From Cloeon dipterum (taxonomy: Eukaryota > Arthropoda > Insecta > Ephemeroptera > Baetidae), in NCBI RefSeq assembly GCF_949628265.1, contig NC_088787.1:23612501-23676500 (forward strand): a stretch of 64,000 bases of DNA. The letters are read 5' to 3'. The position numbers were made by a program, and so were the translations under genes. How positions within the stretch are numbered: the stretch's first letter is position 1; each line of letters opens with the position of its first letter. Below, piece by piece: positions 3,601 through 63,699 of the stretch. The notes beneath the pieces are model-generated. The model did no database searches. It worked only from the letters and a program-made list of their open reading frames with translations, and was not told the DNA's origin.

Positions 3601-3734
3601 GGAGTATTTTTTATTATTAATTTACATTTTATGGTGCATAAACGTTGAGGAACGTAATCTGAGGGACAGCGCTGGGTGCTCTTGCTATTTTACGATGCTA
3701 AAAAGGAAGTGACATTCCTTCAAATTTTACCATT
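661..3734. other. Gene-free region with GC-rich patches
   Basis: About 3 kb without a recognisable gene. Patches at about 840-1,240 and 1,900-2,110 are richer in GC and CpG than the AT-rich surroundings. A 176-codon frame at 3,118-3,648 begins without ATG and has no recognisable domain, so it was not called. Cis-regulatory DNA or intron of a neighbouring gene is possible but unproven. Confidence 0.4.
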
Positions 3735-4165
3735 TTTTTGCTCTTTTTATCCCTGTCCGAGGACCGGGAAGGGCGCGCACTGCACTAGCACGAATGCTGA
3801 AACCCGCGGGTCCTAAAATAACACCGCGAACGGATAACATGGGCGCACCAGGCCGCACAGGGACCCAGCCCACTCAAGGGCCACTTGTCTCCGCACGAAG
3901 GACTTTTTTTGAAACGCTAGACATTTGCCCCGTGAAGCCAAATCACGCATGCTGGAAAGGTGCGAACCAGCAAGTAGCGAGTCGGCGCCGGTGCGCCTCC
4001 CAGCCCGTTGAGCAATTTGAGCACTTCATCGAGTCACTAAACTAACCACTTTTTGCCATCTCTGACATTGGGTAGCCAGTATTAGATCTCCGAACTGCTC
4101 AAATACCTCCCATTGCTATGACACTGCTGAGAGTGCCTTAACAATGCGAGCCAACGGGCTGGTTT
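3735..4165 (+). repeat. Dispersed repeat family B, most complete copy
   Basis: About 430 bp, relatively GC-rich, and recurring elsewhere in the window. The copy at 35,885-36,205 shares GTCGGCGCCGGTGCGC, CATCTCTGACATTGGG and CTCCCATTGC in the same order. The copy at 53,600-53,990 shares CGAACGGATAACATGGGCGC (with one mismatch) and the terminal GAGCCAACGG. A short piece lies at 47,030-47,110. No long ORF, terminal repeats or poly(A) tail are evident, so the class is unresolved. A SINE, a solo terminal repeat or a non-autonomous DNA element all remain possible. Confidence 0.7.
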
Positions 4166-28627: not shown

Positions 28628-30324
28628 TCACTGTGAGTATCTGTAGTAAAAAACACTTTTTTGAACCGAAAAAGTTTGCTTTTCGCTCTCCTTGGCTTGC
28701 GCCTTGAAGACCTCGACTCTGAGAGGGTGGCATGCTTCTTCAGGTACGACCTGACCAACAGGGATGGACACGTCACCCTGGGGACAGGTGCTCAGGGCCA
28801 CGATCAGGTCCATGTCGGCAACAAACTCTATGAAGTCACCCTGACGCGCCGGGCTTGGCTTGCAAAAATAGCGATTGTCCTCGCGCCTGAAACCAGTGCA
28901 CATGAAAATGTTGAAGACATCATGCAGGTCCCTCTCCCCCAGACCGAACTTTTTAACGGCTTTTGTCAGGTTTTGATGGCACGTGTGCTTCACCTGCTCG
29001 CCGCTAATCAGTTTCACTGTGTACTGGTCACACCTGAAAAATGTCCATTTGACACCCTTAAATTTCATTATTTTGATGAAACTTTTAAAAATTGATCTTT
29101 TGAGTTATTTTGAAGCATCTTATTTATTTTAAATCAACATCACGGTTTTTATTATTGTGTATTATCTGAAATCGAGCCACATCATAATTTAAAAAAGGTA
29201 GCAGTATAAATAAAAAAAATAATGGGAGTCCTATCAGGAATTCAATTGTTTATTTTTTTTTAATTCCGAGTTATCGACTGATTTTAATTGATCGCTGTGT
29301 TTTTGCCCTTTGCGCTCGGGATAAAAATGTCAGCCCCAGTATGCATTATTCTTCACCTATATACTCATTGCTTGTTCACGTGTCCCATTATTATTATTGT
29401 TTATTCTTGCCAAAGTCATAAGATACAAAATATAAAAATAACAGCAAGAAATGGCATACAATGCTTGCAAATAGTTCAACTTTTTCAAATTATATTTAAA
29501 GGAGGTAACCGTCCAAAATTTTCTAAATAATCAAATTACCTCAAATATTGGAATTTCAATAACATTTTACCTGGTGCCAATTACGTCGTGGACACCAGCA
29601 CCGTCCTCATCGACGCCATACTTGATAGAGTCGCCGACGATGGTCGCCATAGGGTTCAAGAAGGGCAGACAGCTCCAGAGGCGGTCACCTTCGGTCAAGT
29701 GAGCCGCATGCAGTTGGCGTGTTTTTCCTGAGTAAAAGCGCTCCTTTGGGTTGCGCTGATTCCACAGGTTCAAATCCCCGACCTGGGGGCCACTCGGCAC
29801 GCTTATGCGGCATAGGTCATCTCGCTGCATGCACCACGCTCGCCCGTCCCTTGCTGGCACCGTCAGATCAAGCACCCTGACAACACCAGAATGATTTTCA
29901 TGTTTTTTATGCGAACCATCAGTACCATAATTATATTACATTTTAATTTTAATAGAGGTCCAGATAAAAAGGTCCAGAGAGCTGGTGATTAAGTTGTTGA
30001 CGTATGTAGTCACGAATAAAATAAATTATCACTCATCTTGAATTGTATCATTTTTATTCTACAACATGATGCTTACCGGACATTGGAGATCAATTGTTTT
30101 GGAAATTAATGCAAAATCCTTGTTGAATGTTTGTTATTAAATAACTGCAATGTTTTAAAACAACAAAAATATGTATTATAAAATAATAAAATGGAAAAAA
30201 ATCATTACCTTTTGCCTTCTGCCGCAGCATTTCTCAAAATTTTGTAGCGTAAGAGGTCAACTTTAGTTGCCGCGCTAGCTTGGTAACAAACGCTGGGGCT
30301 CTTCTCTCCTTCCTGCTCACTCAT
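28628..30324 (-). CDS. DUF1989 / urea-carboxylase-associated family protein
   Basis: Three exons read right to left: 30,324-30,209, 29,876-29,571 and 29,033-28,628, with matching phases and 275 residues from ATG to TGA. After a short N-terminus the whole DUF1989 fold is present. Landmarks are GPQVGDLNLWNQRNPKERF, SGKTRQLHAAHLTEGDRLWS, PMATIVGDSIKYGVDEDGAG, VHDVIGTRCDQYT, TCHQNLTKAVKKFG, LHDVFNIFMCTGF, KPSPARQGDFIEF and ALSTCPQGD. The conserved Cys and His residues of the presumed metal site (GTRCD, TCHQN) are in place. Bacterial members work beside urea or guanidine carboxylase; some are carboxyguanidine deiminase subunits. The animal role is unknown. Two spliceosomal introns, and neighbours that are ordinary intron-bearing host genes, argue against contamination. 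I see no signal peptide or membrane helix, so it is probably cytosolic. Confidence 0.92.
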
Positions 30325-39393: not shown

Positions 39394-41861
39394 ATGTCGA
39401 TTCGGCCGTTTCTTGGGGTGCTGCTGCTGGTCGGCCCGTGCCTCGGCTTCAGCTGCAACCGCAGTCCAAATGACAACTCAAAACCCGAGTTCCGGCTGCG
39501 CTATAAGCTTTTTTGCGAGATCGAGTATGATCCTCGTGTTAGACCAGTGGAAAATATTGATCACACCATCCGGGTCAACATGTCGCTCGACATGAAGTAC
39601 ATCAGTATCGTGAGTTTATTACCTGCAAATATAAACATTGCACTTATGTTTCGATATTTTTTCCTAGGATGAATACAGCAACCAGTTCTCGATTTCCGCC
39701 TGGGTAGTGACGGTGAGCTTTTTCACTTTTTGTTCCAGCAGATCTAATCTCGGCTTCTGAATCTTTTGTAGACTTGGTTCGACTCTGAGCTCAAGTGGAA
39801 CCCAACCGATTATGGTATTGATCGCATCAGCGTTTCCAGCAGCTTGATTTGGGTGCCTGACTTATCGGTTTTCAAGTAAATGTGATATATTATATGAGAA
39901 TATATTAAAACCTCTAGCTTTCGTTTGGAAAAATCAAAATTTCACCCATCAAAGACGTATTATTTCACAAATGTGGACAGCTTCGTTTAAGTATTTTTGC
40001 ACCCAGTGAATTAATATTGGTTTTTAATTTATCAAATTTAATATTGAAATATCCGTTTGTTCACATTGCTCTTATTTACAGTGCGGACTCGAGTCAGTTC
40101 TTCATGCTTGACGGTGCGATGGACTGCGTGCTTATTTCCAGCGGAAAAGTGAGGTGCGCCCACGATCTTCGTGCTCCGATGTACTGCGACATGCAGCTCC
40201 AGAGGTGGCCGTTCGACACGCAAAATTGCAACCTCCTAGTTGGCTCATGGGCCTACAACGGCAACTCATTGGACGTGGCTATCATGGGGGTAAATGTTTC
40301 CTTTACTATTTAACCATATCGCTTTGCACGTTTAAGTATCTTTTTAAGGTTGTGTTCCCAAGCTCATTTAGCCCGACTTTGGTTCATTTCAATTTGATTT
40401 CACCTTGTAGAAAAATAATATTTACGGATTGGTGATCAGCCAAAAATTACTTCGATAAAGTATATTGAAGGATAAAGAATAATTGCATTAAATTAGCAGA
40501 TTTTAAATGGCAAACTTGCTATTCCACAGAATCATTAACAAATGTAAAAAACTGTTCATTTACTGCGCCGTATTTTCTTCCAAATCAAAAAAGGTACTTT
40601 TGTTTACCTACTTATCAATATTGAGAAAATTAATTTTACGGGAATTTTTCTGACAGAGTAAAAGTCAATTTTTCACCTATCCATTCAGGAAAATAGTGAA
40701 AAAAATCTGTTACGAGCTTTATTGATCTTATTTTCAGCGAGGTATTAATACCTACGCATTCACGAAGAGCAACGAATGGGAAATGATTAGTTCAAAGAGC
40801 ATAAGGAAGGCTTACACATTCAGCAACGTTTCTTACCCATACCTGCAATTCGATTTCGAGTTGAAGCGCCACGCTGCGTTGTTTGCGGCTTCCATAGTCG
40901 GTCCTGCCTTTGGTACGTCGGAAAATTTGCTGTTCGAAGTAGGCTGCAAAATTTTTTGTTTCTGTAGTCCTGGCTGGATTGGTGGTGATCAGCTTCCTGA
41001 TGAATGGGTTGACCGTACGGTGCGTCGTCTGCTGCACCGCCATGCTGGGGAATGCTCTCTTTCTGCAATACGTTGGCTTCCACCTGCCTGCTGACGGCGA
41101 CACCAGTCCGTACATAGGTGAGTGCACTTTCCAGGCTTGCTGATTTTCTTTGGGTAGATTTTTATTGAATCTAAAGCGACGCATGAGCACCATTATTTTT
41201 TATGGCTCAAAATCACTGAATGGGTGTTTTTGTTGCTTTTGAGCAATACAATATCCGGTTTTATTTTGATGAAATGTAATTTTATTTTATATATAATAAT
41301 TTATAAAAAATATGGAAATTATATTAAGAGAAACTGTAAAATAAATAATGATTTGTTGTGGATTTCAGTGGCTTTTTACAGAGATTCATTGATCCTAACC
41401 TTGGCCGCGGTGGTGATTTCGACGCTTGTGGAGCACATGCGAGCCGCAGGCGACGGTGGCTTTGGTGACCTCTGCGGAGGCGAGGCACCCCAGTGGCTCG
41501 TGGGGGCGGCTTCCTTCGTCAGGGGGCGCGGGGGCCGGGCAGGGCAGCTGCTCCTCGGCGAGCATGACGCGGAAAAGCAGGCCGACGAAGACATGGAGGA
41601 CGTGGTGAGTTTAATTTTCCAAATTGGTCAACAAAACAATTTTTCTTTTGAAAGTGAAATCTGACCAGTTGTATTGCATTTCGTTTGAGGTTACCGGTTG
41701 AATATCTTTTGACTGTTTTACGTTACTTTCAGTTGACGCCACGCGAATCAGAGAGGAGAGGCATTCCGCGGTGCAGCATGTTCGCCACTTTTATAGACCG
41801 CACCGCCTTCCTCGTCTTTAGTATCGTTTACAGTATCCTTCTGTTTGCCCTCGTGCCCTGA
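39394..41861 (+). CDS. Divergent nicotinic-type Cys-loop receptor subunit 1
   Basis: Eight exons: 39,394-39,609, 39,668-39,712, 39,772-39,875, 40,082-40,289, 40,738-40,912, 40,968-41,117, 41,369-41,604 and 41,733-41,861, giving 420 residues in phase. A signal peptide (MSIRPFLGVLLLVGPCLGF) starts the protein. The ligand domain keeps the nicotinic pattern: loop D region AWVVTTWFDSELKWNP, loop A LIWVPDLSVFNAD, the Cys-loop CDMQLQRWPFDTQNC and loop B GSWAYNG. The vicinal cysteines of loop C are absent, so it is a non-alpha type. M1 (ASIVGPAFVLAGLVVIS), M2, M3 (RDSLILTLAAVVISTL) and M4 (AFLVFSIVYSILLFALV) are present. The M1-M2 linker is short and reads FLMNGLTVR, without the usual acidic residue before M2. 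The M3-M4 loop is Gly/Arg/acid rich. The subunit is presumably a plasma-membrane channel component. The gene at 42,494 has the same exon plan. Confidence 0.9.
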
Positions 41862-42493: not shown

Positions 42494-44892
42494 ATGTTAA
42501 TATCCTTAAATCTAGCTTTGCTGCTGCTCTTGCACCTTGCCAACGCAAAGAGCGCGAACTGCAGCGTAGACCCAAACGCAGTAGCCGACCGCCGTCTGAG
42601 GGATACTCTCCTCTGCAATTACGATGCAAACGTCATCCCTCTCAACCCGCCAGAGATGAACAAAATCCGGGCGCAGATCAGTCTCTCCCTCAAGCACGTT
42701 GCAATGGTAAGGGGTGTTTCTTGCAGACATCAAATTTTTATGCTTGCAAAATAACGAGAAGCCTTATTTATAGAATGAGAAAAAGGGAACAATGACGATA
42801 ACCGCGTGGGCCTCAACTGTGAGTACCTTTTTGATCTACGTATTATGTACTGCATAGTATTTTGCAATGAAAAATCAATTTTAAATTAGTCAGGGATGTG
42901 TCATACCTTAAAATAAAAGCTTTAAGTTTATTAAATACTTTTCCAGTTTAAAATTCTATTGAGAGCGAATTAGGAAAGCATCAAGGTTTTTAAGCATGCA
43001 GTCATCTCAATCACATATCTTTTTTTTAACGCGCTTACGACCTATTTACAGAATTGGTTCGACGGCCAACTCGCCTGGAACATGTCCGAATTTGGAGGAC
43101 TGGATAGTGTGATCATTTCTAGCAAGTTAATCTGGACACCGGACCTGACCATCTATAAGTCGGTTATATGGGTTCATTTTATTATTAATACAAATTTCCA
43201 CTCGCTCAGCTCTGATATGACGCAAGTGCATCTCAACCATGATCCTGTGAGCTGCTTCCTTGTACCAGAGGCTCACATCTTCTGCGCCTTTAACCTGAAC
43301 ACGCCCATCTACTGCCAAGCAGATCTGCGTCTCTGGCCCTACGACGTGCAGACCTGCATGCTGGAAATCGGCTCGTGGGCTTACAACGGGGAGCAACTAC
43401 TCGTTGAAAAGGACGTGAGAAGAGATGTATATAAATATTTTTTCGTAGATAATAATTACAATTCCTAATTATTTTCAAGACAAGAAATTAAATGATGCGT
43501 CTTTCAACGGACCAAAATAATTAGATTAACATTCAATAGCGTACACTCCAATAAGGGGTGTTTGTATTTTTAAAGTTTTCTTTCGTAATTAAATTTTTCA
43601 GGAGCACACAATCTCGGATAAAATCTTTTTTGAAAACAAGCAATGGACCGTTATAGAAATCAAAGTGGAGAACGTGAACGACACTTTCCCGTATGTCTCC
43701 TGGACCTTTAAAATCCAGCGTCACGCAGGTCTTTTCGAAGCTGCGTTTGTTACACCTGCTTTTGGTAAAATTGAAGTTGGAACAATGATGGATTATCATA
43801 TTTAATCAGGGATGTTCTTCCAGCCCTAGCAAGTTGCACGCTGCTTAGCTTCTGGGTAATATCACTAACCCACAGGCTGCTACTCTGTTTCCTGTCGCTG
43901 GTATGCAACGTCGCCTTCCTCATTAGCATTGTGGGCCAAATCCACGAGTACGGCGACGAGAAGCCCAAAATTGGTTAGCATCTTGAATTATTTAAAAAAA
44001 AAAACAGTTTTAGAGATTGTCAGAAGAATTAAATGCAGCCCCTCTGTGTGTTGCGAGCTATTTATTTTTCCATTTTTTTTTATAACAAAAATGTCACGCT
44101 TAGCCTGTAGCCGAAATTAGTAGAGCAGGACCTTTCTGAAGAAATATGGACAAAATACTCAGCTCGCTATATACACCGAAGAAGCTTCATTTAATTTTTC
44201 TGACAATAATGACAAACTCGCGTGCTTCTGCCTTCATTGGCATATATCAAGAAGTTTTGGAGATATTTAAAATACTCATATAATAATCGTATCCCTTTTA
44301 TGGTGATGAAATGTTGTATTCAATCGCCTTTTATCAATTTTTATCTTAATATTCAATTTGCGCCTTATCATTTGCCTTTCGTTTGTAACTTAACAGTTTT
44401 ACAGATTACATTATTATTTATAGTAAAAGAAACCCTTAGGATTGAAACAAAACAGTTTATATATATTTAAAAATGTAGAAAATAAGTAATCGACACATCA
44501 ACATCACATGCACTTTTTTGCAGCTGTAGTGTACAGAGATTCAATTGTGTTCACGCTGGTCGCTCTGCTCTTCTGTGTTGCAATGCCGTGGATGGAGAAT
44601 TCCGAGAGTCCCCAAATTCTTGTCACAATCGCGGACGCCATCAGGGAGAGAGGTGGGCGCCGCAGTCGTCTCTTGCTTGGCGTTGACTTTGAGCAAGATG
44701 ACCTGGAGCAGAATGACTCGACGGTGAAAAACTTATTACCTAAATCTTTGAGTTGTGAAACGAAGTATGAAACAGGAATGTCAGCAGCAGTCCCGACCCA
44801 AGTGTGCTGTGTTTGCGCCGCTGTTGGACCGGATGGTGTTCGCGACTCTGTTTGTGCTCTACACATTGATGCTCCTATCTCTGCTACCCTGA
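42494..44892 (+). CDS. Divergent nicotinic-type Cys-loop receptor subunit 2
   Basis: Eight exons: 42,494-42,706, 42,774-42,818, 43,052-43,158, 43,210-43,414, 43,602-43,764, 43,824-43,973, 44,524-44,723 and 44,776-44,892, giving 399 residues. Every intron sits at the same place and phase as in the gene at 39,394, so the two are tandem duplicates. MLISLNLALLLLLHLANA is the signal peptide. The ligand domain shows STNWFDGQLAWN, LIWTPDLTIYNSD, the Cys-loop CQADLRLWPYDVQTC and GSWAYNG. Loop C cysteines are lacking. M1 contains AAFVTPAFALASCTLLSFW, then LTHRLLLCFLSLVCNVAFL (M2 region), VYRDSIVFTLVALLFCVAM (M3) and MVFATLFVLYTLMLLSLL (M4). The linker before M2 lacks the canonical GEK. Intron 3 has a weak donor (GTCGGT), is 51 bp and contains no stop in frame, so retention would add 17 residues. 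AATAAA overlaps the stop codon. Confidence 0.9.
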
Positions 44893-45847
44893 ATAAAAAT
44901 TTTCACACTTGAAAAATGTATCAGGAAACATTAACATATAGCATAACCAAGGAATTTGCTAAATTCAAAACGAAAAACATTTATATAAAACGAGCAGGAA
45001 AGGAACTCTAAGCAAGTTTTTAAGGTTTAAAGTGAGTTTTTATAGGGACATATATAAATCGATGTATTGTCAGGGTTACACCCGACACTCCTTGGTGCTT
45101 CACGCCTATACGCAGGCCGCCCCTTGCCGGCTACCCTAATATATCAATTCTCCTTTAAGTACACCTGCTGGCCAATCAAGGCAAACCTCTAGTACCCGTT
45201 CTTTCATCTCCACCGTTACGCTTGGAGCATCCTAGTAAACATGTTCTACTTAAAAGATGAAGTTTCACGGCTACAATTTTGTTTTTTATTGTATCCACTA
45301 CTGGCCAAACAAAATCGGACACTTTAAATGTAAAAGGATCCAACACTTGAGCCAAATTTATCGATGAACGCCTGCAAATGTAAGCGGTCAGCAGCCTGCA
45401 TAGCTCTCAAGCGTCGCTAATTGCATACTTTTTCTTCTGACTTTTTGCTGATTTTTATTAGTTTCTTCTGCTGTGCTGTAAGTATAGGTGAACTGATGCC
45501 AGGAAACACGCGCGATTACATTGCAGGGAAGTTGCGCATATAGAGAAATTAGTACATTACGTTTACTCCAGCTCAGCAGATACATGTATGTCAGCTACAT
45601 TTTTTTAAAATTGTGACTACCTCTTGATCTTTTGCCAGGCATAAATTCACAACCAGCTCCGCGACATTTGAAAGAAATGCACTTTCGTCAAACAGATTCC
45701 ATTAAGAGAGCTTTCATTCATTAAAACTTTTTGGAACGGGTTTTCCGATTTCTGAATAAATTTTGATATTTTTTACTCTGTCCTCTACAATCTTAAAACT
45801 TACAGAGAGCGTCATCTGTGAAAAAATATATTAAATTTACTATTTGA
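44893..45847. other. Intergenic
   Basis: It follows receptor gene 2. A GC-rich stretch at 45,080-45,240 stands out from AT-rich flanks but has no recognisable coding content. No gene is seen. Confidence 0.4.
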
Positions 45848-48015: not shown

Positions 48016-51000
48016 ATGAGGTCGACCGTGTTTCTGCTGCTCGCCCTTGCCGCCCTCGGGGCAACCCAAGAGCCCCAGAGGGGCTCCGTGTGGCCCAAGC
48101 CTCAGAGCACGGTTCGCTTCCACAACAATGGATTCGTCATTGTCTCCATCAACACGTTCAGGTTCAACGTGAGTTAAAAGCAAATTTTCATTGCTTAAGA
48201 AATACATACTGAAACAAATAATGCGACACAGATTTTTCACTCTTTTTTGGTCATCTATTTATAACTTTTGGCAATTTGTTATACCTTTGAAATTTATTTA
48301 CTTGCCGTCAATGATACTTATTTTGATAAGATATATATATTGTAGAAAATTGACAAGACTCGGCTTCATATATTCCCTATTCATGAGAATCACTCACAAA
48401 AATAGCATGCGGCAAGACATTTTTATTTTCTATAACCTTTCCTAATTCACAAATTAAAACTTGACATTGTGAAAATTTTGTAAGATTAAGTCAGGTTTAT
48501 CAACCAAATTAATAATTTAATTAATTTATTATTATTATTTAGTAGTAATAATTACTAGCACACTGCGCCAGTTAAATTTGGGCTGGTTGTCTGTTTAAAT
48601 TTAAATTAAATTAAGATAGGCATTTAACAGATTTATCACTAGTTCAATATCGTTTGAATTGATCTTACGCTGACACATTTTGATTCGCACGTGTGCACCT
48701 GCGGGTCACGAGGAAGTCTCTGTGGAGCGAAAATGAGCTTAATGCAAATGAGCTACACAATATTTAAGCAACAGATACGCCCACACCTCAAAACATCCAA
48801 CTGCCGTTATCTCTCCAAGTCACTCAGCATGCATTGCGAGATTCCGGTCCTGTTTGTGAATGGTATGGATGGGGGTCGTAATTTTATTTTTCTAGGTTGT
48901 AAATATTATTGAAGCTCTAGAATGTATTATTTTTAAATCGGAACGGAAAAATAAGTACTATGAAAAACACCCATTGCTCATATTTTTTAATTGTTTGAGG
49001 GTCATGGGTATTAAGCGGTTTTTTGCGGATGCAAATTTTTGCGGTTTTTGCAGCTGGTTGCTCCTGTATTTTTTATGCTCATGTAAAATTACGTTTAAAA
49101 TGTTAAAAAAATCAAAAACTCATTTTTTTAATTTAATTTTTTAAATTTCCTCTATTTGTATTGATGAATTTCTCGATTGCAGGGCTCCTATGTAGCGAAA
49201 CATGCACACTCGCTTGCGACACAAACATAACGAAATGTTTACACTATGTTTTTTTATTCATTATTTATTATTCTTGAAATTTTGTTGTATGAGACTCATT
49301 TGTAAATGCATGGACAGTAATGGAGGAGCTCCGATTTTTGCACCGCTGCAGTATAAAATTTGTTAGCATAAACAAATATCTTTAACTGCGGCACACCCCG
49401 AATCTACGCTGGAAGTTTATTATACAAATTCAACATGTAAATCTTTGGATTTCGAGTCAACACAAACCAAAAATCCGTTCCCTCCCCATAATATGTAGGG
49501 CATTTGTTCACATAGAGGTGCAAAAAACCAAAAAAAAAAAACGGGAGATATAAAGCCCTGAGTGTGAGACAGTTTTTACTATTATTTTCAAAATGATAGA
49601 ATACACTAAATGGGTACTTATGAGTTTAAAGACATTTTGATTAAAAATTATTAAATTATTTTTTGCCTCAGTCTTTGCCTCCTTAAATAATTTAAACCCG
49701 TTTAAACCAAATTTATGCATAATAGGCACTTTAATTTGAGTACATTTATTTAGGGAGATCATTTTGCTTGCAAATAGTGGCTTAAAATACGTTGTATAAA
49801 TGCGCAAATTCAATAAAAAAGGTTAATGCATTTCTTGAAATTTGGTAAAATAAATATTTCAAATCAAAACAACACGCTTCAGTGCCACGAGTCAGTCTCA
49901 GGCAGCTCTAATAGACAAAATAAACAACCTGACTCATGAAATAAGTGCGTGAAATTTTAGTGTGCATAGTTGCGTTTTATTTTTTGTATGGCTTGCTTTT
50001 TAAATTATATGACTGCATATATTTCATGAAATAAGGCGCACCTGGAACAACAAGTAAGGTTGATTAATTAAAAACTCTTTAAATCAACAAGGATAGTCTA
50101 CTTTATATAATTCCTTTAAAATCCAAGAACTTTCCAATAATTAATAATATAGATATTGTTGGTTTCTGACAGACCTGCAAATAAATATTTCTTTTAAGAA
50201 ACTATTTCAGTAGGACACATTGATGTTATCTTAACCCTTGCCGCATTAAAATTGTCCAATTGGTGTTGTCAGGTGACACGCAACAAGTGCGATATCCTGA
50301 GTGCCGCACTGACCAGGTACTACAAGTACCTGTCGCTGGAGCGCGAGGCAGGCTATAGTGAGCGCGTCAACTTCCGCGCGGGCAGCAATGAGGTACCCCT
50401 CGGCGAGCAACCGCTCTCCTCCAACTCCAGCTACCGTGGCCGCATCGACTCTCTTGAGGTTGATCTGATGGCCCGCTGCGAGGACACCCCGTACTTTGGC
50501 ATGGATGAGCACTGTCCGATTGCGCTGCACGATATTCAGTCAAGTAAGACTGATTTTTCTTTGCATTGCAGACGAGCTGAGGGTTGACAGCCCCGACGTA
50601 CCGCTCGGCGCCAAGCTGGTAGCTCATTCAATTTGGGGAATTTTGAGGGGACTCGAGACCTTTGTCCAGCTGGCTGCACCCTCCGCTGATGGCACAGCGG
50701 TGAGTTTTGTAACAATTCGATCAGTGAATTTTAACCGCCTTCAGCCATTTCCAAACAGTGTTAAAATAATTACAATTCATATTTACAAAAAAAAAAAAAA
50801 AATCCGTCAATCAGATAATATTAAAACCATTTTTAGTAATAAAAATTTTCATTAGTCAATTTTGAGGCATGCAAGGGATGCGTATAAATATTTAAATATA
50901 ATTATCACTTTAGGAAAAAATTGAAAAATCATCTTTTTTATTATTATGTATTTTGCTTGTGATGCAAAAGACTGAGGAGGAACTTGTTCAGATAATTTGT

Positions 51001-53323
51001 ATGGTAACCACAGAGTTTCCAAATAATTATCGTTGATGTTTTTTCGTCAGCAGATGAGATGTTTTTTAATATTGAGGAAAATTTTCACATTTCATTATTC
51101 AAATTATTAACCTTTCCAGCCCAAAAATCTTTTAATATATAAATTTGTTTGAACGCGATGTTTCCTCACGCCACACATTTCATTTTCATCTCTTCAATAA
51201 TCTCTTTCAATATTTGTAATGCTTGAATGTGAATCAATGGTGTTGTGTGTGTTGCTCTTCATAGCTTCACATGAGCAGCTGCATGATCTCGGATTATCCG
51301 CGCTTTCCTCATCGCGGTCTGTTGGTCGACACGGCCCGCCACTTTATGCCGATTGAAACCCTACACAAAATCATCGATGGTATGGAGGCGAGTAAACTTA
51401 ACACCTTCCACTGGCACATCGTCGACGACCAGTCCTTCCCTTATCAGAGCAAGCTATACCCGGAGCTAAGGTATCTTTTATTTATTTTGCTTTCTTCAAT
51501 ACACAAATCAAAAGAAAAATGTTCGCAAAATCAAGCTCAAATAGATATTTTCATCTAGTTTGCAATAGTTTGGTCAAAGATGTATGTGTCCTTTATAATA
51601 TGATGAAAAAGAATTTATTCGACACAAAATGTGCACAACGAACAGAAAATATAAATGTTTATAAAAGTTCACTGTTCGTTTTTGCGTTGGCGGCTTGAGA
51701 CAGAGTTAAATTCTTCATATCAGTCTAGGAAATTTATTATACACATTATATAATAATTTTTAGTTCAGCCTCTGTCGTGTGAATTTTGTTTCAGTGGAAA
51801 CTGCTGGCTTTCAGATAAAACTAATTGATTTTTCAATATCAGTGTGACAAAATTTATCCAATTTAATAATTATTTGCTGAAAAGATTATTTCCACTATTT
51901 CCGAGTTTTTGTGTATATTGTTTCCCTTTTTATTTTATTAAAGGCATCTTTGATACGCGCTTATCAATTACTTTTAATTTTACAGCGACAAGGGAGCGTA
52001 TAACCCACTTTCACACGTCTACACGCAGAACGATGTCAAGGCGTTAATTGAATACTGCAGACTCAGAGGCATCAGGGTCATCCCTGAATTCGACACGCCA
52101 GGTTATTTTCAAAATAATTTTGCATTTAACCAACTTACCCTTTGCTATATAGCTTACGGAACAAAGCGAATAAATATTTTTATTATATTTCTGTTAATCG
52201 TTTTTAGTTAGTTTAAAAATAATTATTGGGTAGGCATGAAAGCGAAATAAAAAATAATAGTTTTTCATTTTTGTTTAAATTATATATTCAAACCTTTTTC
52301 AGGTCACACGCTATCTTGGGGCAACTCACATCCCGAGTTGCTGACCAAATGCTACAACAGCAAAAGTCCGCTTGGACCAATGGATCCGACCAAAAAGTCC
52401 ACGTACAGATTCATTCAGAACTTCTTCTCAGAAATTGCTGAGGTATTCCCTGACCGGTACTTCCACGTTGGCGGCGACGAAGTCTCTAAGGACTGCTGGT
52501 CATTTAAAAAAAAATCCCCCTAAAATTTAAATAGTGATTACAACTCCATTGCAGGAAAAGCAACCCTGATATCAACAATTGGATGAGGGAGAACAACATC
52601 AGCGGCTTGTACAACAAACTAGAGAGCTTCTACATCAACAAAGCTGTTCATCTCATCTACTCGCTCAACATGAGCACTATCGTTTGGCAGGAGGTGTTCG
52701 ACAACGGCGACACCCAGTTGGACAATAACACGGTCGTACATATTTGGAAACTTGGCAGCTTTATGGAGGAATTGCGGAAGGTAGTAGCTTAAAAATACAA
52801 TCTTTTACCCTTTCCATCTCTTGAAAATTTTTTGAGTAATTTATAATTAATTTACAACTTTAATTCGGTGAGGTTAATTTCGTGCTTTTCAAAGGTTTTA
52901 AAATCTCACCATTTAAAACCTTGAAATTTTTAATACAATGAAACCTTTGCCCAGACGACATCAGCTGGATACATGACCCTCCTATCGTCTTGCTGGTACC
53001 TGGACCATCTGAAGAGTGGTGGTGACTGGACCGAGATGTACCAGTGCGACCCGCATAATTTTGATGGCACCGAGGAGCAGAAAAGATTGATTCTTGGCGG
53101 CGAGGCATGCATGTGGTCTGAGTTCGTCGACTTCACGAACGTAGTGCCGAGGGTATTTCCGCGGGCCAGTGCAGTGGCTGAGAGACTGTGGAGCGACCGC
53201 TCGGTCAAGGATATTCGGGACGCCACCCAGCGGCTCGACGAGTTCAGGTGCCGCCTCCTCAGGAGGGGAGTGCACGCCCAGCCATCCAGGGGCCCAGGCT
53301 ACTGCCCTGGGGAGATCTTTTAG
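48016..53323 (+). CDS. GH20 beta-N-acetylglucosaminidase 1 (chitooligosaccharidolytic type)
   Basis: Eight exons: 48,016-48,168, 50,273-50,513, 50,572-50,699, 51,265-51,470, 51,986-52,101, 52,303-52,498, 52,555-52,780 and 52,955-53,323, giving 544 residues in phase. It opens with a signal peptide ([18 protein letters not shown]), so it is secreted or lysosomal. The non-catalytic N-terminal domain starts at [11 protein letters not shown]. The catalytic barrel holds [44 protein letters not shown], the acid pair in [33 protein letters not shown] and [12 protein letters not shown]. All usual GH20 active-site positions are present. It should remove terminal GlcNAc from chitin oligomers, a role in moulting or digestion known for this family. 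Intron 1 is 2.1 kb. The exon-2 donor is weak (T-GTCCGA) but sits where both paralogs splice. Codons end mostly in G or C. Confidence 0.95.
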
Positions 53324-54502: not shown

Positions 54503-57244
54503 ATGAGGTTGTTTTCACTCAATTCACGGATTTTAATTCAAATTACAATCACACTTTTATTAAGTTTTGGACAGTCAAAAATTTGGCCTAAACCAAATTT
54601 TCAAGTAAGCTACCACAACAATGGCATCATGCTTATACCAGCTAGTAGCTTCCGTTTCAAAGTGAGTAAAAAAACAATCAAATGTGTAAATTTGCGATTA
54701 GTGACAGCAGCACTTTTAGGTGTTGGTGAACACTTGTGACATTCTAGAAGCTGCTCTGAAAAGGTACCACACATACCTTTTACTTGAGCGCACGGCAGAT
54801 TACTTGGGCCGATTAGATTACAAGTCGTCGGACAACTTCCGAGGAAACCTCACGATATTGGGCGTTGCTTTGATGGCACCGTGCGAGGACTCGCCCTATT
54901 TTGGCATGGATGAACACTGTAGAGAAACATATTTTTAATTATGCCTTAAGAACGACCATTTCTGTCTTCACAATGTGCAGTATTCCATTTCACTAACATC
55001 GCGTATATATTTGTGCTGAAATAGATTATGTTTCTCGTAATGGGGGGGGGGGGAACATCCAGAATATATACGATGGAATAAGTTTAGTGAACACATAAGT
55101 TAAAACTGTGGATAATATCTATTAATATTTTATCAAGAAGATATTCATTATTATGCAAATAAAATGTGTACATCTCATTGTCATTTACTTTTGAATTAAT
55201 TATTTGTTTAACAACTTTTTGCATGCTAAAAATAATGTGACATCAAACCTTTTCTTAAGAAAAATACTAATCCATCTGAATACTCTCAGACCTATGATGT
55301 ATTATCTGTTTGAAAATTTTTTAGACGAACTGAGAATTGACAGTGAAGATGTGCCAGAAGCTGGGAAGTTAGTGGCCAACTCAGTATGGGGCATATTGCG
55401 CGGACTGGAGACGTTTGTGCAGCTTGCTGTGCCCTCTGAAGGAGACGAGGCTGTGAGTATTAGAGTGCAAAAAATAGACTGCTAAAAATTAACCCTTTTC
55501 ACGCCAGTAAATTGTGTATTTAGCATTTATTCGTTAGCAGCTGCTTGGTGTCAGACTTCCCTCGGTACTCTCATCGCGGACTGATGATCGACACCTCGCG
55601 GCACTTTCTCCCTCTGTTCACCCTGTTCACTCTGATTGACGGGATGGAAGCGAGTAAGCTGAACGTTTTGCATTGGCACATGACCGATGACGCCGCTTTT
55701 CCCTTCAGAAGTGCTCGCTTCCCTGAGTTCAGGTAAAATTCTCATTAATTTTAGTTCATATTATTTACTCAATAGATAATTTTTCAAAAAGTGAAAAGGG
55801 GTCCTTCCACCCTTATACGCACGTTTATACGCTGAGCGACGTAATATCTGTGGTCGAGTACTGCAAGCTGCGCGGGATCCGCGTAATTCCTGAGTTTGAC
55901 ACTCCAGGTTTGACTAAAATGGTCTTTTGAACCACATCATGATATTATCGTATTTAGAAATCTCCTGAAATAAAAAATAGATTATATACAGCTTTTAAGC
56001 ACCAAATTTTTCGGCCAAGAAAAAAGAAAAATCACTAGGTCTAGATTTTTTTTGGTTGTTTCAAGCAAATTTAACCAACCTTTTGCACCAAAAAAGTTAC
56101 ATTTTTTCCCTTACTTGTCATCCCAAACCACAGCTCATCGTTTTGTAATTCATTCAGGTCATTGCCGATCCTGGGGACAATTATTCCCGCATCTTTTGAC
56201 GAAGTGCTACGATGAAAACGGGGTGGCAGATGGCACATTAGGACCTATAGACCCCACAAGCCAGTTTTCTTACGACATTGTTAAAGGCTTGCTTGCCGAG
56301 GTTTCGCAGGTGTTCACTGATAGTCACATGCATTTGGGTGGGGATGACATACAGCTAGATTGCTGGTAAGAGAGTGGAAATCATTTTTTTTAAATTGATC
56401 TATGAAATAATTTAGTGTTGTACACGCCTTTGTGCGTTTAATAAAATTTTATTTATAAAAAAAACACAACAATTATAATTCTAAAAATCGATGATTATAG
56501 TGTAATACTTGATCATGAATAACTGCACTGAATTTTCGCTTTAGCAAAATCAAAATTTAGTAAAAACTGTCACTTTTCTGCACACAGGGAAAGCAATCCT
56601 GCCATAAACCAATATTTAGAGGAAAATGGACTAGCTGGTGATCACAGGATTTTAGAGGGTGTTTACATGGACCAAGTGGCATATTTCGTGACTGTTTCTC
56701 TGGAGCGACAGATTATTGTGTGGCAAGACTTGTTCGACAACGGAGCAGCGAGTCTCGACCTGGAAACGGTGGTGCAAGTCACGAAGGCTGAGGGGTTTCA
56801 AGAAAAGCTTCAAAATGTTGGTGAAAATGCTCACAGCAATTCTAACGGACTTTTTATCGTTATCGGTAAAACAATTTATAGATCACAGAAAAAGGTCACC
56901 TCGCTCTTCTCTCCGCCTGTTGGCAACTGGACCACCTGGAGTCCAAGTGGGAAGACATGTATGATTGCGAGCCTGGTTATTTTGTTGGTGAACAACCTGG
57001 AAGGGTGATCGGTGGAGAGGCAACCATGTGGACGCACTACGTTGACCACACAAATATCGTGTCGAGGGTTTTTCCGAGGGTGAGCGCGATGGCTGAACGA
57101 CTCTGGAGCACATCACACTCTCTTGACGCGGTGGAGGCGACCGCGAGAATGGATCGATTTCGTTGTCTATTACTCAGGAGAGGTGTTGATGCTGAACCGT
57201 CTATTGGTCCTGGATTTTGTCTAGGCGAAACTTTCCATAATTAA
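54503..57244 (+). CDS. GH20 family paralog 2, probable pseudoenzyme
   Basis: Eight exons: 54,503-54,661, 54,720-54,918, 55,325-55,452, 55,524-55,732, 55,792-55,907, 56,158-56,365, 56,588-56,816 and 56,882-57,244, giving 536 residues with all phases closing. The domain order is that of its neighbours: signal peptide, [61 protein letters not shown] and [13 protein letters not shown]. Active-site motifs have changed. The acid pair reads HLGGDDI (Glu to Asp). ACWQLDHL has Gln for the catalytic-site Tyr. VVQVTKAEG replaces the VHIWK Trp. MWTHYVD has His for the sugar-binding Glu. All exons are open and splice sites are mostly good; the exon-7 donor (GTTGGT) is weak. It is therefore kept as a gene, not a decaying copy. 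It may bind chitin oligomers without cutting them, or act on another ligand. Codons are more AT-ending than in the flanking paralogs. Confidence 0.9.
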
Positions 57245-57557: not shown

Positions 57558-60024
57558 ATGAAGTTGGTGGTTTTGTGTTTGTTGCTCGCTGTTGGAGCGC
57601 TGGCTCAAGACGAGCCCCTCACAAGGGGAATTGGCAAGGAGTGGGGCCCTTGGGTTTGGCCCACCAGGGGTGAAATCTGGCCCAAGCCGAGGAGTACTGT
57701 CAACTACAACATTGATGGCTATATGGCTGTCAGAACCAACATTTTCCGATTCAACGTAAGCGTCAAAATTGTGCTTCAAATGATACATAATTTATACAGT
57801 CACGAATACAGAACTAACTAGAATTTGCTAAAAACAAGTCAACAAATACTGTATAGTGATCAAAATTTTAAATTCGTTTGCTGCTCAAAGTGGGGTGAAC
57901 AAAGAAGTTCAAAAATGTAATAATAGTTTATGGATTTTTTAATAATTGTATTTAATGCCTTTTCTAGCTATATTAAATATGATTGTGAGGATTGTAAGAA
58001 AAATTTTCCAAACACAAAAATTAAAAAGTAAAATGTCGCTTGAAAATTACCTTTGCCGGATTTTGCAGTTTCAAATCGTTAAATTACAGACTTATGGTCA
58101 AAGTTCATAATAATGAACCCTTTGAATTAATTAAAAATAGCTCTCATTGCATGAATTTGTTTTTAAGGTACTGAGCAACACGTGCGACATATTGGACGAT
58201 GCCTTGCTGCGATACTACAGGTACCTGGTGTTGGAGCGCGAGGCAGCGTGGTCGGACCGTGCCTACGAAAGAATGAAGTCCAACAAAATCCCCACTGGAT
58301 TTGACAGCATCAACTCCAAGGCTACATTCCGAGGAAATTTGGACGTTCTTGATGTTGAGCTCACGTCCCCTTGCGAAAATTTGCCGTATCAAGGAATGGA
58401 TGAGAGTTGTTAGTAGCTAAAAATAGCTTCAATTTTTTTTATTTCTCTGTTGCTGTGGGAACATTGCTCCTCTTATCCCTCGATAAGTAAAAATATGTTT
58501 GCCAAAAGATAAAATATTAGCATTGTTGTTTCAGATGAGCTCAAAATTGACACGCCAGATCTTCCAATGGCAGGAAGATTGATAAGTCAATCAATTTGGG
58601 GAATTTTGCGTGGATTAGAGTCCTTTGTCCAACTTGCCGCTCCTTCTCAAGACGGGTCAGCGGTGAGAGGCGAATTTCTTTCATGCCGATAAACCCATTG
58701 ACTGGTATCTTTTAAATGCACAGCTGCACATGAACAGCAGCCACATCACAGACTTCCCGCGTTTCCAGTACCGTGGCTTGATGATTGACTCCGTGCGCCA
58801 CTTCCTGCCCTTACCCACCATGTACAAGCTAATCGATGGTATGGAGGCGAGCAAACTCAACGTTATGCACTGGCACTTGGTCGACGACCAGGCCTTCCCC
58901 TACCAGAGCAATGTGTTCCCCGAGCTCAGGTTGGAGTGCAACAACTTTCACACAGCATAGTAATAAAACTGATACTTCATGCAGTGAACAAGGCGCTTAC
59001 AACCCTTTCTCACACGTGTACACCCAAAACGACGTGAGGAGCGTCATTGAATACTGCCGACTGAGGGGCATCAGGGTGATCCCAGAGTTTGACTCCCCAG
59101 GACACACCAGATCTTGGGGAAACTCACACCCTGAGCTACTGGCCACGTGCTATGGCCCTGATGGGCAGCCTGACGGCAGCCTTGGGCCAATGGACCCATC
59201 CAAGGAATCGACCTTCGAATTCGTCAACACCCTCTTCGGCGAGGTTGCTGGCCTCTTCCCTGATGGCTACTTCCACCTCGGTGGAGATGAGGTCAACTAT
59301 ACTTGCTGGTGCGTGCCCGTGACTTGGCTCGCAGTCGTTTGTTAATGGGCAGGATTATTTGCGTCCAGGTCAACCAACCAGGCGATAAACGACTACATGG
59401 CCTCGATCGGCATTGCCGGTAACTACCAGCGACTGGAAGGCGTGTACGTCGACAGGGCGATTGAGATTGTGCGCAACCTGAACATGAAGCCTATGGTTTG
59501 GCAGGAGGTGTTCGACAACGGTGGCTCGTCCATCGACGCGCAGACAGTGGTGCATGTCTGGAAGGTGCAGGACTTCATGCAAGAACTGGCCACGGTGCGC
59601 CTGCCTCCCTCACCCCTCATTAACCACAAACTAATTGCTTAAATTGCAGGTTACAGGTGCTGGACACGTGGCTCTCCTCTCTTCATGCTGGTACCTGGAC
59701 CATCTGGTGACAGGCGGAAACTGGAAGGAGCTGAATAACTGCGAGCCGCACGACTTCTCTGGTACGACTGCGCAGAAGGATCTGGTTCTGGGAGGAGAGG
59801 CGTGCATGTGGTCTGAGTACGTGGACACCAACAGCATCGAGTCCAGAGTGTATCCTAGGGCTAGCGCCATGGCCGAGCGGCTGTGGAGCGATGTAACCCA
59901 GACAAACACGGTTGAGGCCGCCAGACGGCTTGAGGAGTTCCGCTGCCGCCTTGTCAGGAGAGGCATCAGGGCGCAACCTGCTAACGGGCCTGGATACTGT
60001 CCTGGAGAAGTTTTCAATGCATAA
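57558..60024 (+). CDS. GH20 beta-N-acetylglucosaminidase 3 (chitooligosaccharidolytic type)
   Basis: Seven exons: 57,558-57,755, 58,168-58,408, 58,535-58,662, 58,724-58,929, 58,985-59,308, 59,369-59,594 and 59,650-60,024, giving 565 residues. The signal peptide is [17 protein letters not shown]. An insert not seen in the two paralogs ([16 protein letters not shown]) precedes [13 protein letters not shown]. The catalytic motifs are intact: [86 protein letters not shown] and [12 protein letters not shown]. It should hydrolyse chitooligosaccharides outside the cell. Exon 5 (324 bases) equals exons 5 and 6 of the neighbours (116+208) joined exactly, so one intron has been lost. Introns are short and codons GC-ending, which fits good expression. 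A TATA box is at 57,512 and AATAAA at 60,115. Confidence 0.96.
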
Positions 60025-60114
60025 TTAAGAATTTGGACTGTAAAAATGATAAATAGAAATTTTTCGAAATTAAATGAGTTTGTGAGTTAAAATATAGTTC
60101 ATGCCAGGTTTTTA

Positions 60115-60120
60115 AATAAA
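60115..60120 (+). terminator. Polyadenylation signal of GH20 gene 3
   Basis: AATAAA lies 91 bp after the stop codon. Confidence 0.55.
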
Positions 60121-60730
60121 TGCTAAGTATAATAATATACTTTCCTCAAAATTACCCAGTTTTACCAGTTTTGAGTTAGATGAATTAATACCTATTTCTA
60201 GGCGGTAGCTCACAATGAGACGCCAAGTTATTTGATAATACATTTATTAATTAAAAATATACATTCCTGAGCATCAAATCCACCCGTACTGCTAGTGATC
60301 AGAATTTAGGTTCAATCCATGCCTTGGGGGCTCGGGGGGAGTGCAACATTAATTATAACTCCTCGCGACGCCAAAGCAAACAATCTACAATGCACTTAAT
60401 CGCGAGCACATGCCCACAATTAACACAGAAATGCCCATATTTTTAACATGTGTGTGTGTGTGTTTTCAGTAAGCTTGCCTCTATGTGTGTGTCTGTGTAG
60501 GTTTCTTCGTTGACAAATTTCATTTTGCTTTCTACCGTATTATTAATAATATGTTTACGCATCCATCATCTATTTATAGAATCCATGCCTAGGCTACTAA
60601 AAATCAATAAGATATAATCATTGTACTTGTATCAAAGAGGGGAATTCTCTAGATTCGTCGGAAGAACGCGAAAAGAGTAGTTTCTGCTCTTGTGGAAAAG
60701 AAATTATCTGCGCGGTTCGCCAGTTTTAGG
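60121..60730. other. Intergenic with a short TG microsatellite
   Basis: A run of TG dinucleotides occurs at about 60,449-60,462, and a second interrupted TG stretch near 60,485. No gene is seen. GGTTCAATCC near 60,310 has a T-arm-like look, but no tRNA cloverleaf can be built around it. Confidence 0.4.
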
Positions 60731-61204
60731 TATTATTATTATTATTGTTGTTTATTCTCACAAATTGTCAGGTACATTCATGTTAAAGCAAGTCAATAAA
60801 AATATAAATAAGCATGTGAGAAAAGGCAGCACTCCTGGCAAACAACTTACGAAAGCCCTGTCCAGGAGGACAGAGCCGGAGTGGGCCCAGACTAGTATCG
60901 AAAACACATCACTAACACTTTAAAAACTCGAAATCACGTATTTCTTGCAGAGAGGAATAAACTGCGCCACACTACATGTCTTCATCACAGGTGGAAGATC
61001 GTTCCAAAATTTTACCACTCGATAGTCTAACACATTTTTACCGAGATCAGTGCGGGCTGGCGGCTGCTGTAGTCGAGGGTGCAGCGGGTCATCTCCGCGG
61101 TGGACTCGCCCCAGGGTGATGCGTGACATCGCGTTGTAGTCGGTCACGCCCGCGAGGCACTTCTTGAAGAAAATGAGATCATTGTAGACTAGTTGGGCTG
61201 GCAC
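60731..61204 (-). mobile_element. LINE 3'-end fragment (family A, best-preserved copy)
   Basis: On the minus strand the C-terminal ORF peptide is intact: GVTDYNAMSRITLGRVHRGD, LHPRLQQPPARTDLGKNVLD, YRVVKFWNDLPPVMKTCSVA and QFIPLCKKYVISSF, then stop. The 3' UTR follows, ending TTGTGAGAATAAACAACAATAATAATAATA. The peptide resembles the extreme C-terminus of arthropod non-LTR ORF2 proteins (a YRVV-x-FWN-x-LPP pattern). The reverse transcriptase core is missing here because of 5' truncation. This copy is the reference for the other four fragments in the window. Confidence 0.88.
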
Positions 61205-62755
61205 TGATAGGTATCTGCAATTTGGTGCAAGTATAAGTGGTGCATATTATTCTTGCCTTTTTATAAAGAATATTACCACACTTAGCAATTAAGAGAATAG
61301 AACTGTGAGGAAAAAATAAAACGCTCTCTTTAGCAGCAAATATATAAAAATTTGTTCCCACAACTTGGTAAGGAATCATTAGCGTGTGTGTATTTCGGTG
61401 TGATTTAGTGTGTAGTACATCTCTCTCATAAAATATAACCGGTTTGTTGTGTGGTAATGGGTATCGCACACAACAACGCAAAAAAACAACAATATTGAAT
61501 GAGTAACAGTGCTTTAGACTGCGCCGGCGACGCCTCACCTCAGCGCCAACACAACAGCTAGTCTGCAGATCTGTCCGGCACTGACCAGACAGCAAGCCTG
61601 TTGAGGCTGCGGACACAGCGGTCGGGCCGGGCCCTGAGGCAAAGGTATCGCGCCCAGCGCACAAAAACGAATAGGTGCGGTGAAGGGGGCGAGCAAGCTG
61701 ATAAAATATAGATAATAAACAACAACTTCCTTCCTTACGTGGCTAGCAAATGAATGTGGTAATGTGATGAAGTGTGTGTGATACTTTTTAGATTATATAT
61801 TATATAATTTTATGTACTCGATTTTTCTGACATTTTTCCATTAGAGCTGTTCAGTATGTGAGCCATATTCTGTCAAAGCAACAAAGTTCTGTCCAGGGGT
61901 ATATGGATTTTGATGAAATTTTTTTTTGCGTTAATTTTGCCCTAATTGACCGTTACACTCCTCACAACGTCCCTAAGTGCACTAAAGGGGTATAAGACCA
62001 ATTCGATTTGTATGGAAACCAATACTTCTTGAACAATCAACAATGAGCAAACTAATTATTTTTATTTCTGTGACAGCAATCCCAGTAAGCTTGTCGCAAC
62101 CTCCAATTCATAGACTTCGTAAGAGGCAAGTGAATATTTTGTAGATTTTGATGGTGCAACAGAGAGAATATATAAATGTGCTTTCAGCCCTGCGGATTTC
62201 GCAGCGATCAGCACTCTTATTAGCTTTGAAATCACCCGCGCCATCAACATTGGTCATGTGAAGAGGTTTAATGAAGCGCCAATTTGTGACGAAAATCGCA
62301 GTAAGAGCAATAACACAACCACGAGTAAACTACGAGACGGGGAAAGCCAGGTAAATGATCTCAATCTTTTTGTTCCTTCCTGATATCTTGCCCCTTTTCT
62401 TGTTAAATAATTGATCTCCTTAATCTGGTGTTCGATTTCTACTGTTTAGGCACTGCAGTCTTTTATTGTTAGAAACTTTTGCGATAAACTAGATTATTGA
62501 TATTTTATATAATTCCTGATTTTTTTTGCGTATTTCTATAGAGAAATATAGTCAAATCCCAATTTATGTGCAAATTTGGTGGTTTTAAACAGCTTTTGAC
62601 TGGTTGAAATGGATACATAGAGCCATCTTGTCAGCCCAAATATCACGTTTTTTTTTTGTCAAAATTTAGTACTTCTAACAAACAAAAGTACGTTTTTTTT
62701 GTCCAAATGTCAAGTGTGTGTTTTTGTCATATTTAAGAACAAGAAATATTAATTT
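61205..62755. other. Gene-free region
   Basis: Minus-strand frames at 61,179-61,664 and 62,062-62,250 show no known domain. The GC-rich block 61,500-61,690 has no other feature. At 62,640-62,745 three imperfect CGT-T(6-10)-GTC units occur in tandem. Confidence 0.4.
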
Positions 62756-63690
62756 CGTTTATTAAACACCTATTTGTGTACAACAGATTATATTATATAA
62801 CAGAAAATTGTCATGTCAGTCATTTGGCAGGTAATTTTGCTGCCTGGGTCAGACTCATTTGGTTCTTGTCACAGCTTAAAAAGTGATAGAAATCCATGCT
62901 CTTATCACAAAGTTTACAAACACAGCCTGGAAGAGCTTCACTATGAAATTCTTTAATTTTACACAGCAGATAGTGAAAGCCGTGACAAGCATGCCGTGTT
63001 AGCGTGTGCCTGCTTGTGTAGCACACGGCTTTCCAACTCTGGTCAACCATCGCGGGCGTGTCGAAAAACCCCGGCTCAATCCGGAAAATCTTAAACCACT
63101 GGTTTTGAATAAATTTATTATAATTTGTGGTGTGAGGAAGAGCAAATCTATCAGCTAAGTCATCTACAAAGAAACTAGTGTCAGCCAGCTTGTAAGACAA
63201 TCTCGATTTCATATACTTAGATAAGCCAAGTGCTCTCTTTAGAAATCTCGACTTTACTGATTCTAGCTTGGCAAAATCACTCAGTGTCAGGTGCGGCCAG
63301 ATCACCTGCACACCATAGCTCGCGATAGGCGCGATTGCGAGATCAAAAAGCTTTAGGGCTGTGTTAACAGATGACTTTGAGAGGGAGGTCATTTTAGCCG
63401 TGGCAAAAATTGCTGCTCTAGATTTTTTCAAAATATGTTTCGAAAATGAGCGGCCGGAGGATTGGAGCGTGACTCCCAAATAGTTAAACTCAGAGACAAA
63501 CTCAATTTTCTCATCATTTACGACAAAAGAGTCAAACTTCCCAAGCCTGCCACGCCCTCCATTTCTGAACTTCACGATTTTACATTTTTGAAAATTTAAT
63601 TCTAATTTCCTCTCCATTAAATAGTCAATTAGTAGAAGTGTAAAGCGCTTAAGATCATCCAAATTTTTGGAAAGCAAGGAGCCGGTAGAG
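62756..63690 (-). mobile_element. 5'-truncated LINE, C-terminal part of reverse transcriptase ORF
   Basis: An open frame of 285 codons (63,677-62,820, minus) ends in TGA. It starts just after the expected catalytic YADD position with LLSKNLDDLKRF, then LELNFQKCKIVKF (RT motif D region) and EFNYLGVTLQSSG (the NYLGV motif). The connection region with FLKRALGLSKYMKSRLSYKL follows, and near the C-terminus a Cys/His cluster, CKLCDKSMDFYHFLSC. The 3' UTR to about 62,756 includes AATAAA. The sequence differs from family A in this window. The frame is open for its whole length, so the insertion may be fairly young. The clade within non-LTR elements is unresolved. Confidence 0.9.
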
Positions 63691-63699
63691 CGTATTCAA

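Follow-up and report, generated by a model that had tools for sequence, protein, structure and literature searches.

The analyzed window, a stretch of 64,000 nucleotides (G000:C2:23612501-23676500) from a genome of 190 Mb in 10 contigs, carries three GH20 genes, g1, g2 and g3, which are arranged in tandem, head to tail, on the forward strand (Table 1). The exon borders of the three genes were set by hand so that the reading frame stays open, and a script check of phase and splice sites showed that the seven introns of g2 are all of the GT-AG type and that the gene contains no internal stop. The original prediction of an open eight-exon gene was thus confirmed, with exact coordinates and an intact frame. 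The exon layout of g1 is the same as that of g2, with eight exons, and g3 is without one of these introns, the one between exons 5 and 6 of the other two genes. The acceptor of g2 exon 4 is located one codon upstream of the site in g1 and g3, and the next two AGs would break the frame. The weak donor of g2 intron 7 (AAT/gttggt) is not special to this gene, because weak donors are also present in exon 2 of g1 (ACT/gtccga) and exon 2 of g3 (GTT/gttagt). The g2 protein matches the GH20 catalytic domain PF00728 with 255.3 bits (cut-off 22.3) and the GH20b-type domain PF14845 with 54.1 bits (cut-off 27), both near full length and both above the curated cut-offs, indicating that g2 belongs to GH20. 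Its N terminus looks like a signal peptide, and none of the marks of a pseudogene (stops, frameshifts, lost splice sites) was found in the gene.

Table 1. Features of the window, with the related partial copy of g3. Positions are those of the window, except for the L009 copy; residue names follow HEXB numbering, with g2 positions in brackets.
Feature	Position	Strand	Description
DUF1989 frame	28628-29104	-	open frame with DUF1989 domain
Frame beside channel domain	41158-41664		looks like a further channel exon
Channel region	42974-44912	+	
Channel frame	42974-43468	+	neurotransmitter-gated ion-channel domain PF02931
Frame beside channel domain	44490-44912		looks like a further channel exon
g1	48016-53323	+	upstream GH20 paralog; 8 exons, 544 aa; canonical active site
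g2	54503-57244	+	ATG at 54503, TAA ends 57244; 8 exons, 536 aa + stop
g2 exon 1	54503-54661	+	ATG, start of GH20b2 domain; donor CAAA/gtgagt, phase 0
g2 exon 2	54720-54918	+	GH20b2 domain; 42 bases shorter than g1/g3 exon 2
g2 exon 3	55325-55452	+	
g2 exon 4	55524-55732	+	GH20 barrel begins; R211, D240 equivalents (R188, D217) kept
g2 exon 5	55792-55907	+	short loop 2, as in dimeric GH20 type
g2 exon 6	56158-56365	+	HLGGDDI; H294, D354 equivalents (H272, D333) kept; E355 lost (D334)
g2 exon 7	56588-56816	+	W405 equivalent (W385) kept; W424 lost (T405); weak donor
g2 exon 8	56882-57244	+	to stop; Y450 (Q431), E491 (H468) lost; D452, W489 kept
g3	57558-60024	+	downstream GH20 paralog; 7 exons, 565 aa; canonical active site
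Source of L009 copy	58925-61859		g3 exons 5-7 and downstream flank
L009 copy (G000:C2)	3611-6043		recent partial copy, ~29 kb away
Open frame	62820-63695	-	291 aa

Several further features were observed around the three genes. The L009 copy matches the g3 region in two pieces, with identities of 97.0% and 95.1%, and 11 bases of its exon 5 are deleted; no match to g3 exons 1-4 was found in the 7.5 kb around it. We regard it as a young, decaying GH20 fragment, in contrast to the intact g2. The 291-aa open frame has no Pfam match at E<=0.001 and looks like the last part of the reverse transcriptase of a non-LTR retrotransposon. The two frames that look like further channel exons possibly make the channel region a tandem pair. 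The DUF1989 family is mostly bacterial, and the frame with this domain possibly represents an animal gene that is little known, or one gained by horizontal transfer.

Comparison with solved structures revealed that the best relatives of g2 are human HEXA (2gjx_A, E=1.4e-119) and HEXB (1o7a_A, E=3.1e-114), followed by Ostrinia Hex1 (OfHex1, E=1.8e-55). The identities of g2 to its two neighbors are 54.5% and 53.6%, that between g1 and g3 is 59.0%, and that between HEXA and HEXB is 59.2%. We then compared eight sequences in an unrooted tree (g1, g2, g3, HEXA, HEXB, OfHex1, L010, and L011), in which L010 and L011 are further GH20 genes of the same genome. Among solved proteins Ostrinia Hex1 is the nearest to L010, and this, together with the introns of the genome, marks the genome as insect-like. 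OfHex1, L010, and L011 split from g1-g3, HEXA, and HEXB with a support of 100/100, g1-g3 group together at 98.7/99, and g2 is placed beside g3 at 96.4/96; in a tree of the five lysosomal-type sequences alone, the g2-g3 support is 95.5/97. The position of g1-g3 with HEXA and HEXB rather than with the OfHex1-type genes assigns them to the lysosomal HexA/HexB type, which probably corresponds to the insect group IV of PMC8998872. HEXA and HEXB share with g2 the disulfide cysteines, the short loop 2, and the C-terminal tail, but they have the four pocket residues lost in g2. OfHex1, L010, and L011 resemble g2 as members of the GH20 family, but they lie across the 100/100 split and are likewise canonical at the four sites. 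In addition, a pattern scan of the genome contigs returned 37 pattern matches, with no relative among them, and a search for COX1 gave a single fragment that scores below the family cut-off.

Comparison of g2 with its neighbors revealed all four motif differences described in the original prediction (HLGGDDI, VQVTK, CWQLDHL, and MWTHYVD), but within VQVTK only the replacement of Trp by Thr is a loss; the Gln of this motif matches human HEXA, and g1 and g3 have His there. In HEXB numbering, the losses are E355D, W424T, Y450Q, and E491H, corresponding to D334, T405, Q431, and H468 of g2, with the acid/base Glu replaced by Asp. Further changes, T295C and C487T, are located beside the pocket motifs. 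The residues W405, W424, and W489 are presumably pocket residues of GH20. Passages of PMC2492878 list D196, D208, R211, D354, Y450, and E491 as substrate-binding residues and assign D240, H294, and E355 to the catalytic triad, all of them completely conserved in the set of that study, and a passage of PMC6499197 describes W489 and W405 as inhibitor contacts. Among the 11 pocket residues examined, g2 retains seven (R211, D240, H294, D354, W405, D452, and W489). It also has the six cysteines (6 of 6) that pair into the three disulfides of HEXB. The sugar site of g2 itself is thus damaged, since Y450 and E491 belong to the substrate-binding residues just named and W424 presumably lines the pocket. 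The four lost sites are canonical in all seven other aligned sequences (g1, g3, HEXA, HEXB, OfHex1, L010, and L011), an alignment that left out L012, a divergent GH20 gene of this genome, and the partial g3 copy. Because g2 is placed beside g3, and because g1, g3, and the other sequences are canonical, the loss of these residues is derived on the g2 branch.

These substitutions bear on two other readings of g2. An assembly or consensus error is extremely improbable: the sequence comes from a single assembly, but the four sites differ by one or two bases each with the frame undamaged, and a collapse of copies cannot yield a gene so dissimilar to both of its neighbors. A changed chemistry or specificity, in which D334 would serve as the acid/base and H468, Q431, and T405 would recognize a different sugar, is improbable, although R211, D240, H294, D354, D452, and two of the three pocket Trp are kept and the replacement of Glu by Asp keeps a carboxylate. 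As this swap is conservative, some residual or altered activity is possible; however, Y450 and E491 are canonical in every other aligned sequence, and the Arg/acid pair of the -1 subsite is described in a passage of PMC4449183 as conserved in known GH20 hexosaminidases. An active GH20 beta-hexosaminidase is marked by the Asp-Glu pair together with the -1 subsite residues, and g2 departs from both through its four replacements. In the account of PMC10211241, a pseudoenzyme is a homolog without the conserved catalytic motif, and that motif is absent from g2.

To evaluate whether the losses are concentrated in the active site, we used a deep reference set (g1, g3, HEXA, HEXB, OfHex1, and L010) with 63 invariant positions. 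g2 is changed at 4 of 10 active-site positions and at 2 of 53 other positions (p=0.0045), the latter two being L254F and V356I. With the same six references, the contrast was 3/9 vs 3/54 (p=0.033) when only the nine residues of PMC2492878 were counted, and 4/12 vs 2/51 (p=0.0099) when the three Trp were added to them. The deep set rests partly on L010, and L010 and L011 are both manual joins whose junctions are approximate; upon removal of L010 the contrast was 4/10 vs 6/67 (p=0.0215), and upon addition of L011 it was 4/9 vs 2/52 (p=0.0031). With four references (g1, g3, HEXA, and HEXB), the contrasts of 4/10 vs 27/154 (p=0.096) and 4/12 vs 27/152 (p=0.17) were not significant, nor were those with three references (p=0.119, 0.166, 0.205, and 0.275), so that the preference for the active site is visible at the deepest positions only. 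When other genes were taken as the target, g1, g3, L010, and OfHex1 each showed 0 of 10 active-site changes, with 0/53, 4/57, 14/67, and 15/68 changes, respectively, at the remaining positions. The predicted loss of key residues in g2 therefore exceeds chance with the deep reference set and not with the shallow sets.

The selective constraint on g2 was analyzed with a three-branch codon model of g1, g2, and g3 over 502 codons. In the free model, omega of g2 is 0.054; fixing it at 1 costs 16.7 lnL units, and at the two-unit level values larger than about 0.12 are disfavored. The same constraint is 12.7 units worse on the g1 branch and only 1.8 units worse on the g3 branch, where an omega of 1 is therefore not excluded. 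Whichever model is used (one-ratio, two-ratio, or free), the estimated dS exceeds 1 for each branch, indicating that synonymous sites are saturated, and GC3 differs among the genes (0.707 in g1, 0.536 in g2, and 0.677 in g3). The omega of g2 has to be treated with caution because dS is saturated, GC3 is unequal, and a value of 1 is not excluded for the ordinary-looking g3. The dN/dS ratio proposed earlier as a check on g2 accordingly falls below 1, the side that supports a retained function, subject to the same caution. The low GC3 of g2 perhaps reflects weaker codon selection or lower expression.

The absence of stop codons provides a sounder argument for constraint than dN/dS. We simulated neutral change 1500 times from the coding sequence of g3 (565 codons, slightly longer than g2). 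At a dN of 0.21, which is about the number of nonsynonymous changes per site in g2, the simulated sequences carried a mean of 10.9 stops and none of the 1500 runs was stop-free, while g2 has no stops. A long-dead pseudogene was ruled out on this basis, about 11 stops being expected and none seen. Whole-codon indels were discarded as evidence for constraint, because gaps taken from a protein alignment are whole codons by construction. The intact frame at this dN, together with the kept scaffold, supports the predicted selection for a retained non-catalytic role, and g2 carries the open frame under selection that is expected of a pseudoenzyme, the dN/dS part of this assignment being weakened by saturation.

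A more recent decay, in which g2 was functional until lately and is now relaxed and becoming a pseudogene, would agree with its weak donor at intron 7, its lower GC3, and its branch in the five-sequence tree, which is the longest of the three (0.63, vs 0.37 for g3 and 0.22 for g1). The weak donors, however, occur likewise in g1 and g3, and the four lost codons need at least seven base changes. Under neutral change of 0.05 per site, just 3.7% of runs stay free of stops (P=0.037), and within such a span at least seven changes have a probability of 3e-6 when the 12 bases of the four codons are counted and of 0.0016 when all 11 pocket codons examined (33 bases) are counted. With neutral change of 0.1 per site, the 33-base probability rises to 0.051, but that of a stop-free frame falls to 0.003. 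Since these changes are too many for a short neutral span, we consider recent decay quite unlikely. An acceleration specific to g2 was also considered, with a mixed result: g2 was set against g1 or g3 in eight relative-rate comparisons, of which only two were clear, both against g1 (HEXB as outgroup, p=9.3e-5; OfHex1, p=9.4e-4), the other six gave p=0.053-0.47, and g3 itself evolves faster than g1 with the same outgroups, HEXB and OfHex1 (p=0.013 and 0.0079). From the intact gene and its four replacements, we infer that g2 has probably been retained as a gene whose product lacks ordinary hexosaminidase activity.

We further analyzed the dimer features of g2. Passages of PMC4449183 describe dimerization as essential in HexA, HexB, and OfHex1, since each -1 subsite has, behind its conserved Arg and acidic residue, the C-terminus of the partner subunit; HEXB A548 and G549 contact the Arg211 pocket of the partner, and the OfHex1 dimer, in which the C-terminus of the partner also completes the pocket, uses P582. 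In the C-terminal tail retained in exon 8 of g2 (a stretch of 10 residues), Pro-Gly is aligned with HEXB A548-G549, as in g1 and g3. E491, the acid on which the tail of the partner packs, is the residue replaced by His in g2. The five dimer positions given in a passage of PMC2492878 are I454, Y456, Y492, T496, and A543, of which Y492, T496, and A543 are kept in g2; I454 is replaced by Leu in g2 and likewise in g1 and g3, and none of the three genes has Tyr at Y456, where Ser or Thr stands instead. With its short loop 2, dimer positions, and tail, g2 has the features of a GH20 dimer subunit, Y456 being absent as in g1 and g3. The active copies differ at the dimer positions as well, with Phe at Y492 in g1 and Asn at T496 in g3, so the positions kept in g2 argue only weakly for dimerization. 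At the positions on which g1 and g3 agree, g2 matches 15 of 21 in the tail, 139 of 199 in the barrel, and 70 of 98 in the N-terminal domain; the tail is thus not specially protected, since the three parts have diverged about equally.

Comparison of these results with the three roles that the original prediction had offered (chitin-oligomer binding, decoy, and partner subunit) suggested that the partner subunit fits the evidence best, a role that g2 may plausibly have. Chitin binding or a decoy function is less favored, because sugar-binding residues are among those lost and g1-g3 side with the lysosomal HexA/HexB lineage. The main rival is a stand-alone pseudoenzyme whose barrel binds another ligand or a protein, which we consider somewhat unlikely. 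The scaffold of g2 is kept and its pocket is altered, with T295C and C487T next to the pocket motifs, and a precedent exists in the imaginal disc growth factors (IDGFs) and chitinase-like proteins (GH18), insect glycosidase paralogs kept without the catalytic Glu. For the IDGFs, a passage of PMC1945033 reports Gln in its place and proposes that they came to bind proteins instead. The IDGFs belong to a different glycosidase family, however, and in g2 sugar-binding residues are also lost; as GlcNAc-binding residues are among these, binding of chitin or GlcNAc itself is unlikely.

Since pocket residues are lost, the protein is intact, and the scaffold is preserved, g2 most plausibly persists as a partner to the active enzymes related to it, without cutting sugar itself. 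On sequence grounds, we tentatively propose that g2 is a retained lysosomal-type GH20 pseudoenzyme, most likely one subunit of a one-sided heterodimer. In this proposal, tandem duplication would have come first, and the sugar pocket of g2 (the acid/base Glu, the sugar-binding Tyr and Glu, and the pocket Trp) would then have been dismantled, while the fold, the disulfide cysteines, the dimer positions, and the C-terminal tail stayed. The g2 protein would pair with the product of an active neighbor, g1 or g3, and its tail would complete the pocket of the partner, with no working pocket contributed by g2 itself; in this way g2 might tune the stability, location, or substrate choice of the partner. 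A similar arrangement is described in a passage of PMC5201418 for the AdoMetDC prozyme of Trypanosoma brucei, an inactive paralog that forms a heterodimer with the live enzyme and thereby activates it. g2 may work likewise, although AdoMetDC is an unrelated enzyme and the pairing of g2 is proposed only. It is conceivable, with less confidence than for the pairing, that g2 represents a hexosaminidase 'prozyme', which gave up its own pocket and whose tail completes an active partner, within a lysosomal-type heterodimer in an insect lineage.

Pseudoenzymes exist in many families, relatives of insect chitinases included. No GH20 pseudoenzyme or 'prozyme' was found among the open-access matches listed, as judged by titles and abstract openings. 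A word search in the main text of the pseudoenzyme review PMC10211241 gave 0 occurrences of hexosaminidase, glycosidase, chitinase, and glycoside hydrolase. Pseudoenzymes as a kind are already known; a case in the GH20 family and a mechanism based on a shared pocket would be new. Because the pockets of a GH20 dimer are shared between its two subunits, a dead subunit has an obvious, testable mechanism. Should this reading of g2 hold, it would reveal how regulation was added, in one animal lineage, to a type of enzyme that in humans works as pairs of subunits.
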